Below, in pieces: positions 7,861-58,018 of a stretch of 64,000 bases of DNA. The position numbers were made by a program, and so were the translations under genes. This DNA is from Lamellibrachia columna (Eukaryota > Annelida > Polychaeta > Sabellida > Siboglinidae): assembly GCA_963662155.1 (NCBI GenBank), contig OY759273.1, positions 32,482,536 through 32,546,535 on the forward strand, read 5' to 3'. The stretch's first letter is position 1. Every line of letters begins with the position of its first letter. The notes below the pieces were generated by a model. It was not told the DNA's origin and did not search any database. It saw only the letters and a program-made list of their open reading frames with translations.

Positions 7861-9370
7861 CGAGCCGCTGTGATCCTCAAGGGCTGGCCAGATACTAAGC
7901 TGGAGACACCGCACGCAGTCCAAATGTACTAAACAACATGTGACAAACTCTCCGTATCTGACAGTGTAGTGTACAAAGGTATGAGAATCGTGGTGCTGCC
8001 AAACATAAGGCCTAACACGCTTGCACAAATACACAAGTCGCACATGGGCATAACGAAATGCTAGCAACGAGCGCAGAAAGCACAATACTGGCCAGGGATA
8101 ACGCAATAAATCGAAAATCTCGTGAATGATTGCGCAGCGGGTAACACGTACCAGAATAAGCAGCCAGCCGAAACGCTCGGGTCAATGAAAACACCTGATC
8201 TGCCTTGGGTCGAAGTAGCAGCGGACATTTTCGAATGGGAAAGAACTAACTACTTGGTCACTGTAGGTTACTATTCCAAGTACATCGAAGTTCACAAACT
8301 CGAGAATTTGAGCAGCACAGCTACTATTGACGCCCTCAAATGCCAAATGAGTCGACAAGGTATTGCAGAAAAATTTAGATCTTACAATGCAACACAGTTC
8401 TCACCTCGTGAATTTACGCTTTTCTGCACAGACTACCAGATCGACCACTGCACATTATCGCCTGCCTTTCTGCAGTCAAATGGTGAGGCAGAGAGGGCAG
8501 TACAGACTGTGAAACGACTTTGGCGAAAGTGTACAGACAAACACTTGGCCTTGCTAGACTACCGCAAAATGTCAATGGAAAGCTGCAATCTGTCACCAAC
8601 CCAGCTACACATGAGTCACAGGCCTAGAAATAACAGTCAGAGAGCTTCCAAAGCCAACTACCTACGATGCGTCCAAAGTGAGACACAGCCTGGACAGGGA
8701 TAAGGAGAAACAGCATCACTGCTAAGACAAGAAAGCCAGTGGGGATCTCCCAGTACTTCTGCCAGAGGATCCAGTGAGGATGGCACCATTCCCGGGCTCC
8801 AAGAAATGGCTACATGCCACTATTGTATAACTGACACCCAGCGCCTAGATCGTATGACACCTTCAACTGTCAACGATCGGAGCACAACAGATGTACTCCA
8901 GAATCGAGCCAGAAATAAGCAGCAAGTCACCCGGTCAACAAGTGCTAACTGGAGAGTCACTCAAACAGCAGCTGTCACACCGCCAGCACAGTGCCCAGTT
9001 TTGAACACAAGTAATTTCAGTAATTTGAGCTGTAAATAGAAGTGTGAATAATGGCACAAGAAAATGGACAGACATTGACTTTTATAAATACTTACTTTGT
9101 AAACTGTACATTTGCATATACTGTATACAGCAATGCTGTCACACAAGTAGACTCGACTGTATACATTCAAATTTAGTAGCGACATATGCAGTTGTAAGCC
9201 CATACATTTTGATTTGTTAGTACAGATAATCTTTCTTTGGAAGAAAGGGAGATCTGATATTCAGAGTGAATATACCGTTAGGTTTTACAGCAACCGCACA
9301 TGTTCACGGCTAGCGGAAAGCCATCAATAAACATATCGAGTTACCACACTGCCATTCCTGTGTCTAGTCA
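7861..9370 (+). mobile_element. Degenerate Ty3/gypsy retrotransposon, integrase end
   Basis: From 7861 the text resembles the tail of reverse transcriptase/RNase H (ILKGWPDTKLETPHAVQ) and then the integrase zinc finger (IHKSHMGITKC, YWPGITQ, NDCAAGN) with stops at two positions. The integrase core is open at 8122-8703: WVEVAADIFEWE keeps the first Asp, FLQSNGEAERAVQTVKRL keeps Glu, but the middle DNGPQF motif reads YNATQF, losing the second Asp. The C-terminal part is broken (LPVLLPEDPVRMAPF). A purine run (GAAGAAAGGGAGA, 9241) may mark the start of a 3' LTR with AATAAA near 9327. The element cannot move. Confidence 0.85.
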
Positions 9371-10648: not shown

Positions 10649-10675
10649 ACCTCAAAACTTTGCACACATTGTAGC

Positions 10676-11150
10676 CATCGATTCCAGAACTGAGAGACCT
10701 TAGTTATGAAGAATGCCTGAAAGAATGTGGTTTAACAACCCTAGAGACAAAGAGGTTAAGAGGAGATCAGATTGAAGTTTTTAAGATATTGAATGGGTAT
10801 GAAAATATTTATAGAAATATGTTTTTCTCACTCAAGAAGGATAGCAGAACTAGAGGACATGAGGTAAAATTAGTAAAGGATCAATGTAGATTGGACATCA
10901 GGAAGCACTCGTTCTCACAGAGGACAATAAATGAATGGAACAAATTGTCTACAGATTGTGTAACTGCTAGCAGCGTGAATATGTTTAAAAACAAGGTTGA
11001 CACATATCTCAGGAGGGCGGTTATAAGTAGATGAACATTGTTGGACTCTCGATAAGTCAATGGCTTCCTTGTCCACTTGCCATCTGGGCTTTTGGCTTGG
11101 ATGGCAAATCTTGTTAAATATTGTTAAATCTTGTAACTATCATATAGTTA
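10676..11150 (+). mobile_element. 5'-truncated LINE copy
   Basis: Nearly identical to the last 470 bases of the LINE at 48270 (IPELRDLSYEECLKE to KVDTYLRRA and the 3' tail). It lies antisense in an intron of the CHD1 copy. Confidence 0.9.
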
Positions 11151-32097: not shown

Positions 32098-33732
32098 ATG
32101 GAGATCATCAAAAACCAACGTGGTGGTTTGAAGCTAGTACATGAAGGCTATATGTACACTAAGAAGTACGTCCGGAAGAATGTCAGATGGGAGTGTGCCA
32201 ATCGCTATGCATTCAGCTGTAAAGGCGGTCTCACTACAGATGCTGAGGTAAATATTGCACGATCATGTTGATTGATTGCAGTTTGGAGTAATATTATATT
32301 TACTCATTTATTAACTCTTTTTCTCCTGTATTGGATGTTTTAAACCATTATTATTAATAGACATTAAAATATTAATTTTAATAATTGATATCATTACTAA
32401 TGGTCATTTCACTTCTTATCTTTCCAGATGAAGACTGTTATCAGCTCCACACCACATAGCCATGATCCCCAGGAGCATTCCGTTGCAGTGACCAAACTAC
32501 GTGCAACACTCAAGGAACATGCTGCAGGTTCACGTGGTACACTGAGTCAGCTACTAGTGGACCACACTACTGAGACCCCTGTAGAGGTGCGTGCAGAACT
32601 CGGTAATCCTGATACTGTGAAGCGTTCTCTCAGACGGGAACGTGCCAAGACTATGCCCAAGAACCCTGCTTCGCTTCGTGATCTCACACTTGATGAGGAG
32701 TGGACAATCACTAGTGACCAGGAACAGTTCCTCATCCACGACAGTGGAGTTGATTCCTCTGATAGGATGTTAGTGTTTGCTACTGACAATGCCCTGCGTC
32801 ACCTCGCTAGTTCTGACTCCTGGTTTATGGACGGAACATTCAATGTTGCACCACTACTGTTCACTCAGCTGTATGTGATCCGCGTACCGTTAGGAGAGTC
32901 GGCTGTGACCTGTGTGTATGCATTCCTGCCGAACAAGCATCAGTCCACCTACGAGGAACTGTTCACTGCCATACAAGACAGATGTACAGAGCTCGGTTTC
33001 CAGGCTGATCCAACAACCATCACCCTTGACTTCGAGCAAGCTGTGATTAATGCTGTGACGTCATCCTTCGGACCCCAAGTCAACGTACATGGCTGCTTCT
33101 ATCACCTAACACAGGCCACATGGAGGAAGATCCAGACTCTTGGTCTTGTACAGCGATATAGAGAAGAGGAGGACGTGAAACTCTTCTGTGGCATGCTAGA
33201 TGGACTCGCCTTTTTACCAGTGGATGATGTTCCTGAGGGTATGACATATCTACGGGAGCACACACCAGAAGGACTTGAACCTCTCCTGGACTACTTTGAC
33301 AACACCTATGTGTCCGGAGCCTTCCGTCGTATTCAGCCCCCACAACATCCAGATGGATCCATGCCTCCACTTAGGATGCATCGCATGCCTCCTATGTACC
33401 CACCACCCATATGGAACGTCAATTCCATTACTCTTGAAGGGGGATCAAGAACCAACAACATATGCGAGGGATGGAACAACGCCTTTGCAAAGCTAGTTGG
33501 ACATGCACACCCTACCATCTGGAGAGCCATTGATAGCATACGGAAAGATCAGGCCCAGGTTGCCACTGCCCTACTACGTGACCTGCTTGGTGAGCCACCA
33601 GCAAAGCGTGTAAGACGCCACACCCACAAACTCCAGTCAAAGCTGCACAAACTGTGCACTGACAGGCGTGACAACAGCAAGACTGTCCCAGACGTACTTA
33701 AGGGCATTGGCCATTGTGTAAGATTTAAGTAA
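32098..33732 (+). CDS. FLYWCH-MULE transposase, one intron
   Basis: Exon 1 (32098-32247, 50 codons) and exon 2 (32428-33732) are separated by a 180-base GT-AG intron and give 484 residues. The N-terminus is a FLYWCH zinc finger: RGGLKLVHEGYMY, then Cys in RWEC and FSC, and the His pair in PHSH just after the splice, so the intron splits the finger. The remainder is a MULE transposase, which cuts and inserts DNA between inverted repeats. The candidate DDE residues are Asp185 (WFMDGTF), Asp251 (TLDFEQA) and Glu397 (ICEGWNN), with the family C-x2-H motif (GCFYHL) at 273-276. No stop or frameshift is visible. A second copy of the last 28 codons follows the stop. The C-terminus (KRVRRHTHK) is basic. 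Confidence 0.88.
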
Positions 33733-47895: not shown

Positions 47896-48269
47896 GCATT
47901 CCCTGTGTGCTTCACTGAGCATGCATGCATACTTATACTCGGGCTGCATAATTAATCATCCACATGGCAGCAAGCTCAAAATGCTTCATGTAAACACAAT
48001 TATTTGTCGGCTTTTTTTGCGCATATAACACCCAAATTATGCATAAAATGCAAGAAATAAGTGGCAGAGAAAGTACTTATGGGAACTGATCACGTTTTGA
48101 TACAGTACATCTCAAATGCATGTTACCTCACAAAGAATCGCTTTAACTTACGCAGGCTTAATCAAATTATTGTTGAAACAGCTGTTTTCAACATGGTCAT
48201 GGTTATATTGATAGCTAGTATAGGCAATCTCAGTCATCAGTCTTGGGTCAATACAAGAGGCCACTAGCA

Positions 48270-50880
48270 CAGATAAACCAATATCAAATCATCCGAAAAA
48301 CATCTCTGAAAAAGGTTATAGATGCGTATGTTTAAATGCAAGGAGCATAGTAAATAAGAAAAACGAATTAAACATTATGGTAGAAGATATTGACCCTCAC
48401 GTAATTGGTATAACTGAATCATGGGCCAACATAGATATAACAGATGCTGAAATAGGACTGACAGGATATGTAATGTTTAGGAAAGATCGAATAGGAAGAA
48501 GGGGCGGGGGAGTTATTTTATATGTTAAAGAATCTATTGAGGCTTATGAAATAAAACTAGAAAGGGAAGCAGATTGCGATGAAGCTGTTTGGTGCAAAAT
48601 TGTTTCAGGAAATTCAAAATTAACTATTGGATTAGTTTACCGAAGTCCAAACATAAACGAAGAGGACAACACAAAAATAAAAAACGCTATAAAGGAAGTT
48701 AGTAAAGGGGAATGTATCATAATGGGAGATTTTAACCATGGACACATACAATGGAATTCTCTAGAGAGCACAGGGATTGAGGACCAACAATTTCTATTTT
48801 TAATCCAGGATAGCTTTCTTACTCAGCACGTACTAGAACCAACCAGGGGAGAAAATGTATTAGATATAGTTTTGTCATCACAAAAAGAATTAGTGGACAA
48901 TGTAAACATATTTGAACCATTGGGTAACAGTGACCATAATCAAATACATTTTGACATCAATGTAAAATCAGAAAGTAAAAATAAGAAAACGTACAAGAGA
49001 AACTTCCACAAAGGTAACTACAAAGATATGAGAAAATACTTAGCAAAGCTAGATTGGAATAACATGCTGATGAATAAGACCGCAATTGAATGTTGGAATA
49101 TTCTAAAATATGAAATTGAGAGTATCATCGATAAATTTGTTCCCTTCCAAAAACAAGGAAAACGGTGTAGAAAGAAACACTTGTCAAAAGAGGCTATTAG
49201 AAAAATAATGCTAAAACAAACTATGTGGAGGGTTTATAGGCGTACCAAAAAGGAAAAAGACTATGCAAAATACAAAGAGGCACTTAATGCAGCTACAACT
49301 GAAATCAGACAATCTAAAAGAAGCTATGAGCAAAAATTAGCATGTAACATAAAAAATGACAGCAAGAGTTTTTATGCATGTGTCAGGAGTAAACAAAACG
49401 TACAAGACAAGGTACGTTTGAATGGAAGGAAGCAAACATCATACCATTATTTAAAAAGGGTTCGAGAAATAAGTCAGAGAATTACAGACCATTGAGTTTA
49501 ACGTCAGTGATTTGTAAATTATTAGAAAGGTTAATTAAAGACCATATGGTGGACTTCCTCGTTAAGCATAAATGATTAAATTCATCTCAACATGGATTCC
49601 TTAAAGCGAGGTCATGCTTAACAAATATGTTATGTTTTTTGGAAGAAATCACTAAGTGGATAGACGTGGGATCGCCAGTAGATATTATCTACTTAGACTT
49701 TTCAGAAAGCTTTTGACAAAGTGCCACATCAAAGATTACTACTTAAATTAAAAGCCCATGGTATCGGGGATAGCATAACTGACTGGATAGAACAATGGCT
49801 GACTGACGGAAGACAACGAGTTGTAGTAGATGGAGAAGTTTCAAATTGGAAATCGGTTTTGAGTGGGGTACCTCAAGGATCAGTATTAGGACCTATATTA
49901 TTCTTAATTTATATCAATGACTTGGACGACAATATAACAAGTAACGTACTGAAATTGGCGGAGGACACAAAACTGTTTAGAAAGGTTAATACTGATGGTG
50001 ATAAACAACATTTACAAAACGATCTAGACAGATTAGTGAAATGGTCTGAGAAATGGCAGATGTTGTTCAATTTTGGGAAAAGTAAATGCCTACATACAGG
50101 ACATGGGAACTTGAATGTAAACTATAAAATGGGAGATACTGTTCTGGGTACTACTGTAAAAGAAAAGGACTCAGGAGTTACAATAAGCGCTGATATGAAA
50201 GTTTCAGAGCAATGTGGTATTGCAGCTTCAAAGGGTAATCAAATTATTGGATTGATTAGAAGAAACATAACATACAAGGGAAAAAAGTTAAATATACCTC
50301 TTTATAAAGCAATAGTTAGACCTCATTTAGAATACTGTATACAAGCATGGAGACCATATCGTAAGAAGGATATAGATACGCTTGAACGCATATAAAGGAG
50401 AGCAACTAAAATGATTCCAGAACTGAGAGACCTTAGTTATGAAGAACGCCTGAAAGAATGTGGTTTAACAACTCTAGAGAGAAAGAGGTTAAGAGGAGAT
50501 CAGATTGAAGTTTTAAAGATATTGAATGGGTATGAAAATATTGATAGAAATATGTTTGTCTCACTCAAGAAGGATAGCAGAACTAGAGGACATGAGGTAA
50601 AATTAGTAAAGGATCAATGTAGATTGGACATCAGGAAGCACTCGTTCTCACAGAGGACAATAAAAGAATGGAACAAATTGTCTACAGATTGTGTAACTGC
50701 TAGCAGCGTGAATATGTTTAAAAACAAGGTTGACACATATCTCAGGAGGGCGGGTTATAAGTAGATGAACATTGTTGGACTCTCGATAAGCCAATGGCTT
50801 CCTTGTCCACTTGCCATCTGGGCCTTTGGCTTGGATGGCAAATCTTGTTAAATCTTGTTAAATATTACATTTTAGAGATG
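48270..50880 (+). mobile_element. CR1/jockey-like LINE, nearly full length, inactive
   Basis: From about 48310 (LNARSIVNKKNEL) it encodes an apurinic-type endonuclease with TESW, GGGVILYV, GDFNHG and SDHNQI. After an internal deletion near 49410, which shifts the frame, comes reverse transcriptase with LSGVPQGSVLGPILF. It ends with the C-terminal tail HSFSQRTIKEWNKLSTD. Breaks: the deletion, TGA at 49573, a one-base gain near 49710 and TAA at 50393. In the catalytic box the first Asp is Glu (LAEDTKLF, codon at 49961). The 3' end has GTTAAATCTT repeats. Such elements copy themselves by target-primed reverse transcription. Confidence 0.9.
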
Positions 50881-54720: not shown

Positions 54721-54992
54721 AAGAAGAATAACTCGAATGAAAGTAGATTTTCCAAAGACATTAATCTCCACAGGTCAAACCGTCCTCATGTTGATATCAG
54801 CCCATTGTTTGTCAACGTGGCACTGATCTATACGACTACAGCTAGAAACTATTTGGAAGCGTGCCAGTTCACGATTTATATGTTTTTGAATTACATAAAA
54901 GGCCAAGTCAGCCAACAGTTTCGGCAGGTTACAGGTGAGCAGTTGAACACATCGGTCGACACGTCTGGTACAGGTAAGTTTTTCCTCTGCAG

Positions 54993-55096
54993 GTCTGAAC
55001 TTCGCCGTCACTGGAAAGTTCACTTCGAAACCGGCTTGTGGAGACATCTTCGCTATCTCTGTACACGAATTACATTTCGAGCAATGTGTCGTTTAA
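54993..55096 (+). CDS. Possible terminal exon, unrecognised
   Basis: After acceptor TTTCCTCTGCAG the frame reads LNFAVTGKFTSKPACGD, then IFAISVHELHFEQCVV and TAA. The upstream partner is unclear, since the nearest donor would leave a 20-base intron. Low certainty. Confidence 0.2.
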
Positions 55097-55629
55097 ATGC
55101 AGTTTGTATCCTTTGACATTGAATTTTTAGTTTGTTCTTTGTCTGTTTTCGAAGAATATGCTTATAAACGCTCGCCCAGAGCATGACATTTTAGGTTTTG
55201 CAGTGGTGGTTTTACTGACTTGCGTGCGTGATTCTAGTGAGAACCCAACACTGTTTCAAAGACATTGGTTTGCGATGGGTAATCTGTAGCTGATGCCCGC
55301 CACTCGGTGTGCGTCGACTCAATTAACATATCTGAACAGACTTGGTTGGAGTTACTTACCTTAAACAAATCGAATCGACGTGAAACCCAACCAGCAGGTG
55401 ATTGACTCGATTGTCAAATATAAGCATTTTGTAAACATATTTGGTGTTTGCGATAAGCGTATCTCGCCAATCGTCGCTACTGAGCATAGTGGCCGATGAC
55501 ACAAAACCACGTGGTGCACGCCTGATTCTGTCTGCCAGTCAGTCTGTTTACCTCTCCACTGTGTTTATTTTCTTCTTTGTCCATGGCTTTGTCCTTTCAA
55601 CCAACCGCTGCCTTGTTCTTGTTTGGTTC

Positions 55630-56570
55630 TCCCACTCCGCCGTTTTCTAGTTCTCTCACTCCACCTTTGTCTAATTCTCTCACTCCACCTTTGTCTGATT
55701 CTCTCACTCCACCTTTTTCTGTTTTTTTCACTCCACTTTTGTCTAGTTCTCTCACTTCACCTTTGTCTAATTCTCTCACTCCACCTTTGTCTGATTCTCT
55801 CACTCCACCTTTTTCTGTTTTTTTCACTCCACTTTTGCCTAGTTCCCTCACTTCACCTTTGTCTGGTTCTCTCACTCCACTTTTGCCTAGTTCCCTCACT
55901 CCACCTTTGCGTAGTTCTCTCACTCCACTTTTGTCTAGTTCTCTCACTTCACCTTTGTCTAATTCTCTCACTCCACCTTTGTCTGATTCTCTCACTCCAC
56001 CTTTTTCTGTTTTTTTCACTCCACTTTTGTCTAGTTCTCTCACTTCACCTTTGTCTGGTTCTCTCACTCCACTTTTGCATAGTTCCCTCACTCCACCTTT
56101 GCGTAGTTCTCTCACTCCACTTTTATCTAGTTCTCTCACTCCACTTTTGTATAGTTCTCTCACTCCACCTTTGCCTAGTTCTCTCACTCCACTTTTGTAT
56201 AGTTCTCTCACTCCACCTTTGCCTAGTTCTCTCACTTCACCTTTGTCTGGTTCTCTCACTCCACTTTTGCCTAGTTCCCTCACTCCACCTTTGCCTAGTT
56301 CTCTCACTCCACTTTTGTATAGTTCTCTCACTCCACTTTTGTCTAGTTCTCTCACTTCACCTTTGTCTGGTTCTCTCACTCCACTTTTGCCTAGTTCCCT
56401 CACTCCACCTTTGCCTAGTTCTCTCACTCCACTTTTATCTAGTTCTCTCACTCCACCTTTATCTAATTCTCTCACTCCACTTTTGTCTAGTTCTCTCACT
56501 CCACCTTTTTATCTACTTCTCTCACTCCAACCTTGTCTTGTTCGCTCACTCCTCCCTTGTTTTGTTCTCT
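55630..56570. repeat. 24-base minisatellite with higher-order structure
   Basis: About 38 copies of TCTAGTTCTCTCACTCCACT plus TTTG variants. Runs of several units (with CCTTTTTCTGTTTTTTTCAC) recur three times, so multi-unit blocks were duplicated. It ends about 60 bases before the signal-peptide codons. The frames over it (SLTPPLSS type) are artefacts. Confidence 0.95.
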
Positions 56571-56632
56571 AACCCCAGCCTTGACCTGTCACGCCGCCTT
56601 ATCTTGTAGTAGAACGTCACTGGCCAGACAAG

Positions 56633-58018
56633 ATACGCGCAAGCTTCCTTCTACTGCTCTGTGCCGTGTTGTTGGCGACGGCGGCTTTCGCCAATGAAGC
56701 CGTGAGTACATGTCACATTACCAACACATGGTGTTTGGCAAAACTGTTATGCTGTTAAACGGTGCAACTACCTAGTATTAAAACCACCCAAAGCAATACG
56801 CTATGCAAGACAAGGAAGGCATTGGTTTATCGAGAGTCTAACATTTTTATGCGCCCCATCTTTGGTAGATACAGGTCAATTTTGGTTTCCCATGTCAACA
56901 TTCCCACTGCTAGCATTGAAACACCATTTTGGTGTCCAATATAACCTATTATTTTTCTAGTGCTACTTTGTATCTTCTTGTTTATGTACCTTCCTGAAAT
57001 TAGAAAGCATAAAATCAATTTTGTTATGCATTTATATGCAGTAGCGTGAATTCTTACGAAACCAGTGTATATTATTATTATTTTATAGAGGAACGATGAC
57101 AGTCTTACTGTGTCGGTAGACGAACAAGGCGAGAAGTTGGCCGGTAAGTTAATTCTTTTACAATAACATTCTTACACATGGTTTGAAATTATGGCCTATT
57201 CTTAAAACATTCGGTATACAAGTATTGCCTAATCTGTATTAAAGTATTTTAATAAACGCAAACAAACAATTGAGTGATTGTTGGCCAGTGCGGCATTTCT
57301 AGTGAAGACGATTGTTTCTGTACCACAGAACGTGTAATGCTACTAGGAAGCGTTACATTTGTATAACCTATTGCCGACATAACGGATCAGTTCTAAATAT
57401 GTAAAGTCGGCTTTAATCATACTTAACGTCCGTGATATGACGCAACATGGTGCATATTAGTTTGCTATCTGCTGGATATCCTCGAAGCGTGTAGATTCAA
57501 ACCAATGCCAGCATACAATGGCTGCCAAACCCTCTTGGGCCAAAACCACGGAAACAACCGAATCGCGACGGAAACCAACGAAGCGGGATTTCTAAGTTCT
57601 GCATACATCCATTTCTTCGTATAAAAGATGCAGGTGTTTAAAAGAAATATTTCTGAAATGTACAGTTACTATTGTAAGTGTGATATGTGGTTAAAATAAG
57701 CATTTCCAATGATCTTTAAATGGGTAAATATGGATTCATGGGAAGGTGGGTATCTCCGGAGTGCCAACCTACGGCCGGCCACACACGTCGTTTATGTCCA
57801 CGTGTTCATCCAGTAGTCGTCTATTTACACGTGCAGCGTGAATTGTTTGTATTTCATTATATGCACTGACTTTTATAACACATATGTTCAATATAGGTGA
57901 AGTTGACCGCGTCAAGAGACGTTTTTGGCGACGCAGGAGACGTCCTTGGAGACGTCCTTGGAGACGCCCTTGGAGACGCCCTTGGACACCTTACTGGAGA
58001 CGCCGCTACATCAAGTAA
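56633..58018 (+). CDS. Trp/Pro/Arg-rich antimicrobial peptide precursor, three exons
   Basis: Three exons join in frame: up to 56701 (donor GTGAGT), 57089-57143 (acceptor TTTTATAG, donor GTAAGT) and 57897-58018 (acceptor ATATAG, stop TAA). Exon 1 encodes a hydrophobic leader (SFLLLCAVLLATAAFA) followed by Asn-Glu-Ala. Exon 2 encodes an acidic propeptide (RNDDSLTVSVDEQGEKLA). Exon 3 opens GEVDRVKR, a furin-type site, and then a 32-residue tail with 15 Arg, 6 Trp, 5 Pro and 1 Lys. The tail contains four tandem RRPW units encoded by 12-base repeats, and ends RRRYIK. Known linear peptides of this composition (indolicidin, tritrpticin, mussel myticalins) act on bacterial membranes or intracellular targets; activity here is inferred. 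The codon where Met is expected (56633) is ATA, and no in-frame ATG lies between it and the upstream TGA at 56582. An upstream coding exon, a non-ATG start or a null allele are all possible. The 24-base minisatellite ends just upstream. Confidence 0.75.
56785..56945 (-). mobile_element. Diverged LINE 3' fragment in the first intron of the peptide gene
   Basis: The reverse complement of ATTGGTTTATCGAGAGTCTA and the CTAGCA(G)TG...AATGTTGACATG stretch match the LINE end. It lies in the intron after the signal-peptide exon. Confidence 0.65.

Follow-up and report, generated by a model that had tools for sequence, protein, structure and literature searches.

A probably antimicrobial, apparently undescribed multigene family of Trp/Arg-rich peptide precursors in a tubeworm, with one copy that is most likely a young pseudogene or null allele

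Indolicidin, tritrpticin and peptides of the PR-39 type are produced from precursors in which a leader, a pro-part and a cleavage site precede a C-terminal Trp/Pro/Arg peptide lying in the last exon. Hydra arminins combine a leader, an anionic pro-part and a cationic C-terminal peptide, are restricted to their lineage and are tied to the microbiota. Vestimentiferan tubeworms live on bacterial partners that they hold in check. The annelid peptide families named in the available part of a review on worms are lumbricins, macins, BRICHOS peptides, perinerin, hedistin and Ms-hemerycin (PMC6780910), and the mussel myticalins are restricted to Mytiloida according to their authors, in the accessible text (PMC5577615). 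Host proteins of the Riftia proteome were screened against a peptide database at more than 75% identity, with histone hits as candidates (accessible part of PMC6918071); a screen at that threshold would be unlikely to see the family described here. Antimicrobial effects of trophosome tissue are noted, citing earlier work, in the available text of PMC7787665, and no such peptides are mentioned in the accessible portions of two Paraescarpia papers (PMC8476170, PMC6908572) and a Ridgeia paper (PMC3372519).

The window, that is, the whole stretch of 64,000 nucleotides that was analysed, corresponds to contig C13:32482536-32546535 of the Lamellibrachia columna genome. It contains one gene of interest, with the following features:

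54880..54973, + strand: 5' exon, most likely untranslated; donor at 54974 (CAG/GTAAGT), next acceptor ending at 56609.
55619..56582, + strand: 24-base minisatellite of 40 copies within the first intron (TRF).
56610..56701, + strand: leader exon, acceptor CTTGTAG ending at 56609, donor GTGAGT, 28 other copies in the genome; it holds 23 untranslated bases, ATA at 56633-56635, a 20-residue hydrophobic leader and the first three propeptide residues, NEA.
57089..57143, + strand: acidic propeptide exon, RNDDSLTVSVDEQGEKLA(G), acceptor TTATAG, donor GTAAGT.
57897..58018, + strand: third coding exon, acceptor CAATATAG, in frame in paralogs; it holds the EVD-RVKR cleavage site at 57908-57919, the 32-residue peptide at 57920-58015 and the stop TAA.
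57936..57986, + strand: 12-base tandem repeat encoding RRPW units (TRF), with an RRPW count of 4 here.

The first-pass annotation had proposed three exons in phase, encoding a hydrophobic leader, an acidic propeptide, RVKR and an Arg/Trp/Pro-rich peptide with an RRPW x4 core. These exons (56633-56701, 57089-57143 and 57897-58018) are indeed bounded by GT donors and AG acceptors, and when joined they form a single frame of 81 codons followed by TAA. The translation agrees with the proposal as well: the propeptide has a charge of -6, and the mature stretch after RVKR, RFWRRRRRPWRRPWRRPWRRPWTPYWRRRYIK, has 32 residues, 26 of which are Arg (15), Trp (6) or Pro (5), and a charge of +16. The core is encoded by a 12-base tandem repeat at 57936-57986 with 4.2 copies and a 97% match in TRF. 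The leader end was set by the -3,-1 rule and not by a signal-peptide program. Two corrections are needed. A further 5' exon, at 54880-54973, lies upstream of the three, and the leader, on whose missing Met the annotation was silent, begins with ATA; the gene structure is that of the family (leader, propeptide, RVKR, C-terminal Arg/Trp peptide) except for the ATG start. The window copy is also the only one among 29 copies with a GTGAGT donor after the leader exon, and its first mature residue is Arg, as against Gly in six other intact copies. Repeats matching the 24-base minisatellite sit between the corresponding exons in the paralogous blocks L009 and L010.

A search of the tubeworm's own genome (880 Mb, 30 contigs) with the leader exon found at least 29 distinct copies (30 rows, row L046 being left out as a piece of the L035 copy), and a search with exon 3 found at least 11 rows; every one is on C13, and these row counts are lower bounds, as the search scores the best candidates only. 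The copies form three clusters at 22.2-23.9 Mb (13 copies), 29.8-30.2 Mb (11) and 32.3-33.1 Mb (5). The propeptide exon, which encodes a propeptide of about 20-25 residues, was found by pattern in 25 of the 29 copies, the exceptions being L028, L038, L043 and L045, and the mature part is readable in 24, with 22 distinct sequences (none from L024, L026, L034, L036 or L045). Copies in which an ATG, a propeptide exon and a cleavage exon were all found constitute a set of 20 full copies, a count that includes L037, probably in a shifted frame. Their mean pairwise identity falls from 0.91 in the leader, MRASFLLLLCVVLLATAAFANEA in the family, to 0.47 in the propeptide and 0.33 in the mature part. 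The 18 distinct mature parts of these 20 copies are 12-40 residues long and have charges from +2 to +20; three of the 20 copies are weakly charged (+2, +3, +3), all 20 contain Trp, and 19 are without Cys, the exception being L042. Pro occurs in some family members only. Mature parts include RRPW repeats, WRW repeats, short GWRR forms, RSSLP...WW forms and long NRRQGGGWKRRNTW repeats. Propeptide charge ranges across copies from -6 to +3, and the 24 cleavage sites comprise RVKR (15), RVKK (5), RAKR (2) and LVKK (2). The first-pass suggestion that unit number can change is borne out by close paralogs, in which the RRPW count ranges from 3 to 5, and by L012 and L013, whose third exons differ by exactly 12 bases (128 and 140). 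At ~7880-8270 of L015, some 86 kb downstream from the window gene, an expanded RRPW repeat is interrupted by three internal stops. This fragment matches the propeptide exon in part, and the 9.8 kb that were read around it contain no leader exon. It represents unit expansion in a dead copy.

Relatives were also found in Lamellibrachia satsuma, a siboglinid annelid. In a single-sequence search, the 81-residue query found two L. satsuma proteins, at E 1.5e-20 (LSAT2_016878) and 6.2e-10. The best of these has the same leader but with Met, and shares GEVDRVKR; the C-termini are nearly identical (WRRRYMK against WRRRYIK), and its core is WRWRW, not RRPW. In the third exon, GEVDRVKR and the C-terminal WRRRY(I/M)K are common to the window gene and model P0001. 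A profile search returned ten L. satsuma gene models with the window's leader and an ATG start, each on a contig of a different length, plus four leader-exon frames on contigs of three lengths, and a third protein search with a broader alignment added no further family members. The homologous part of the propeptide exon is present in L. satsuma too. Conservation of leader and propeptide in related species, on which the first-pass annotation had made its proposal depend, is thus found in the L. satsuma models, and on this point the proposal is not refuted. L016 (the same as L025) agrees with P0001 at 45 of 46 prepro positions and 26 of 35 mature positions, and subfamilies such as this one are common to both genomes. 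The 5' exon, read as codons, agrees with L. satsuma at up to 30 of 31 positions, and from this and the prepro agreement we take the two species to be closely related; no readable mature part of the genome copies is identical to an L. satsuma one. Models P0001, P0008, P0012 and P0013 use the cleavage-site and Arg/Trp frame; in P0010 the tail that follows RVKR is non-cationic. Weak matches made through Arg-rich stretches were excluded from the relatives: P0003 (E 1.6e-2), P0004 (0.82) and P0005 (7.4) in the single-sequence search, and P0018 (5.5e-2), P0019 (0.15) and P0020 (3.5) in the profile search. P0003 resembles a precursor in having a basic cut before an Arg/Pro-rich part, and P0018 and P0019 carry Arg/Trp-rich tails such as WGWRRRRWGWRRPWRRRYWRRRYYW, a likeness that is probably compositional only.

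Selection differs along the precursor, as judged from pN/pS values that are pooled pairwise counts ignoring kinship among copies. Over leader codons 2-23 in the 27 ATG copies the pooled value is 0.38, versus 0.73 and 1.27 in the other frames, and the variable leader columns number 8, 11 and 13 by codon position, a weak skew; in the comparison with the 5' exon (0.93), the leader gives 0.22. The propeptide exon gives 1.49 (7 copies, 46 bases) and 1.46 (11 copies, 55 bases). These values show purifying selection on the leader but not on the propeptide, where selection is relaxed or diversifying. In the mature frame the third-position excess is borderline (18/38, p=0.051).

The window copy departs from this pattern at its first codon. 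At 56633-56635 it has ATA (Ile), with no in-frame ATG in that exon, so the gene as assembled may not be translated. ATG stands at this place in 27 of the 29 leader exons of the genome, the other ATA being in L045, a frameshifted copy for which a second exon was not located, and Met stands where the window has Ile in all 14 family sequences from the L. satsuma search (ten models and four leader-exon frames). AAG precedes the ATG or ATA in all eight start sites compared. The copy lies within a duplicated block of ~7 kb or more, most aligned pieces of which are 87-92% identical to the sister loci L009 and L010 among the matches listed, repeats included. Besides the start, its private changes are 3 synonymous and 6 non-synonymous (ratio 0.61; p=0.36, which does not differ from neutral). 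The start codon was probably lost recently, and recent loss of function is the simplest reading: in all likelihood the copy is a null allele or a pseudogene of young age. It is less likely that translation begins at a non-AUG codon or at the in-frame ATG that the 5' exon carries upstream. The ATA may also be allelic, stem from an error in the assembly or go with a switch of start site. With its frame intact and its start lost, the copy presents birth and death in progress.

The copies as a whole are best read as members of a multigene family, new to science as far as we can tell, whose linear Trp/Arg-rich peptides are probably antimicrobial. All 20 full copies have the composition and layout of a short Trp-bearing cationic peptide released from a precursor, and we infer secretion from the leader. 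The precursor would enter the secretory route, signal peptidase would cut after AFA and a furin-type convertase after RVKR, and the freed peptide would kill or restrain bacteria, with Arg binding anionic envelopes, Trp inserting at the interface and Pro keeping the chain extended. Such roles of Arg, Trp and Pro are those of indolicidin and tritrpticin. Diversity would arise from gene duplication together with gain and loss of 12-base units. According to the accessible texts, the synthetic peptide KWLRRPWRRWR, with an RRPWRR core, is potently antibacterial (PMC10653547), and RRPWRR is also present, through overlap, in analogues of Bac5 (PMC6973051) and in a design derived from indolicidin (PMC4457802). 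A ribosomal mode of action is less likely, since no PRP triplet was found by eye in the 24 readable mature parts and even myticalin A5, which is rich in Pro, had to be raised to 100 uM before it inhibited translation significantly (available part of PMC5577615). Several observations stand against the antimicrobial reading: propeptide charges of -6 to +3 are too small to neutralise a +16 peptide, three of the 20 full copies have weakly charged mature parts, the third-position excess in the mature frame is borderline, 9 of 24 cleavage sites (RVKK, RAKR, LVKK) are less typical for furin, P0002 and P0006 read exon 3 in an acidic frame, and the tail of P0010 is non-cationic. On balance we consider it likely that the locus belongs to a multigene family of secreted linear cationic peptides of antimicrobial type in the tubeworm, and that the window copy is a start-lost member, most likely a pseudogene or null. 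With 29 or more related leader exons, the array supplies defined peptides that can be made synthetically, localised in the tissues and assayed.

Another reading, which is unlikely, is that the array encodes a diversified set of host effectors with which a gutless tubeworm lets in, confines or moulds its bacterial symbiont, in place of generic defence. The near-invariant leader and a mature part varying in sequence and in 12-base unit number would then be the source of specificity. Legume NCR peptides and weevil coleoptericin have a comparable symbiont-shaping role. Also unlikely is a non-immune role of the secreted basic peptides, such as binding anionic tube or mucus polymers or signalling. 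Arg-rich peptides bind many polyanions, and antimicrobial activity is so far read from composition and layout; however, a near-constant leader joined to hypervariable, Trp-bearing cationic mature parts, 19 of 20 of them without Cys, resembles antimicrobial families of the myticalin type.

A further reading to which we give a low probability concerns the window copy, which would still function by starting at the ATG at 54880 in the 5' exon and yield a precursor of 120 residues, 43 of them ahead of the hydrophobic core, which would start at residue 44. The 5' exon, which is present in 8 of 9 loci examined including the window and has 94 bases with no indels, is open and in frame over the junction, and begins with ATG in 7 of the 8 loci having it; its reading matches models P0002, P0006, P0007 and P0009, and P0002 and P0006 start at its ATG. 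Gene models, however, prefer in-frame ATGs by construction, and the upstream ATG has T at -3 whereas the canonical site has A. The pooled pN/pS of 0.93 in the 5' exon (7 copies), against 0.22 in the leader, led us to reject coding as its main reading. In L033 an in-frame stop lies between the upstream ATG site and that copy's own leader ATG, just before the latter, so the upstream codons are not needed there. In a seven-copy alignment the exon is about as conserved as the next 120 bases and more so than DNA further out; when the alignment is restricted to the four 32 Mb copies, exon and surroundings show no clear difference. From pN/pS, conservation pattern and the L033 stop, the exon is most likely untranslated. 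The block around it, 54854-55093, has a divergence of 0.06-0.11 versus 0.10-0.40 in flanking DNA in the seven-copy alignment and reaches ~120 bases beyond the donor, a contrast that the four 32 Mb copies by themselves do not show; it is perhaps a promoter or enhancer.

It is very unlikely that exon 3 is mainly read in another frame, through the inner acceptor CGCAG/GAGACG, as an acidic GDVLGDAL repeat protein of which the Arg/Trp frame is a shadow. The models P0002 (LSAT2_029856) and P0006 (LSAT2_021984) seem to take this acceptor, omitting the cleavage site and the cationic frame, so that 2 of 10 L. satsuma models apparently use the acidic frame, and in each of the seven copies read that have an intact frame it runs through the repeats without a stop. 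Against this, paralogs that lack the 12-base repeat also have the cleavage site and the Arg/Trp frame, P0001, P0008, P0012 and P0013 take the Arg/Trp frame, and base changes favour its third position, though only at p=0.051. Models like P0002 and P0006 may be a reason why the family was missed. A chance open frame or repeat artefact, conceivable in a region with 75 TRF rows of which many are open in several frames, is refuted by the L. satsuma homolog at E 1.5e-20, the shared exon structure and the purifying selection on the leader.

Elsewhere in the window, a non-LTR retrotransposon with endonuclease and reverse transcriptase matches lies at 48224-50764 (+), its frame in pieces, and a near copy of its last piece is found at 10675-11034. 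A 443-codon open frame at 32401-33732 (+) has a MULE transposase domain (E 2.5e-12), and an integrase-core-like frame at 8110-8700 (+), scoring 30.5 bits against a Pfam cut-off of 32.6, is perhaps a fragment of an LTR element. The 75 tandem-repeat rows of the window (TRF) include long minisatellites of 51 bp x39, 56 bp x21, 42 bp x24 and 45 bp x23; several window minisatellites have more than one frame free of stops and would lead scans for open frames astray.

Database comparisons did not place the family among antimicrobial peptides. Pfam gave no antimicrobial family placement (best, Metchnikowin at E 0.017; P0001 with 11.2 bits against a cut-off of 25), NCBIfam gave sub-threshold bacterial names only, and the 32-residue peptide matched no solved structure at E<=10. 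In bacterial genome contigs 91 stretches, and in viral contigs 600, matched the pattern, none of them confirmed as relatives. In the open-access literature, with subscription papers and preprints outside the scope, none of the titles or abstract openings among the matches listed describes such a family, which fits the first-pass remark that the gene was possibly unnamed.

Among described systems, the myticalins and modiocalins of Mytilus and Modiolus are likewise linear, cationic and Arg-rich with Pro, Trp or Tyr, and in the accessible text they share a conserved leader, a hypervariable mature part and a multigene organisation with pseudogenes (PMC5577615). They had been cited as precursors of like layout, but according to the same text their order is leader, mature peptide and acidic C-terminal part, a single exon encoding both the signal peptide and the mature region (PMC5577615), the reverse of the tubeworm family, in which the acidic part precedes RVKR and the peptide ends at the stop codon. 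The family leader does not, by eye, follow the myticalin consensus MKGXXLLLLTIXXALCMIXECEG given there (PMC5577615), and no myticalin was among the matches of the three protein searches. BRICHOS peptides (arenicin, alvinellacin, nicomicin) are annelid and have an acidic pro-part before a C-terminal peptide (available parts of PMC6265681 and PMC6780910), whereas 19 of 20 tubeworm mature parts are without Cys; neither a BRICHOS domain nor a cathelin-like pro-domain gave a Pfam match at E<=1 in the nine members scanned, of which several had been cut down to their leader and propeptide. Lumbricins are annelid and rich in Pro and aromatic residues (PMC6780910, PMC11678341, in the accessible texts) but have 57-76 residues and ~15% Pro in the available part of PMC11678341, versus 12-40 residues dominated by Arg and Trp here. 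Arminins are alike in layout. The cathelicidin-derived indolicidin (sequence given in the accessible part of PMC4457802), tritrpticin and PR-39-type peptides have the same order of leader, pro-part, cleavage and C-terminal peptide, but the tubeworm pro-part of ~20-25 residues is without a cathelin domain. The family offers a new example of how effectors can become hypervariable behind a constant leader, here with a simple unit prone to slippage. It is real and of a known kind, apparently undescribed, with strong genomic evidence and a putative function, and by analogy its peptides would probably work like indolicidin and the mussel myticalins.
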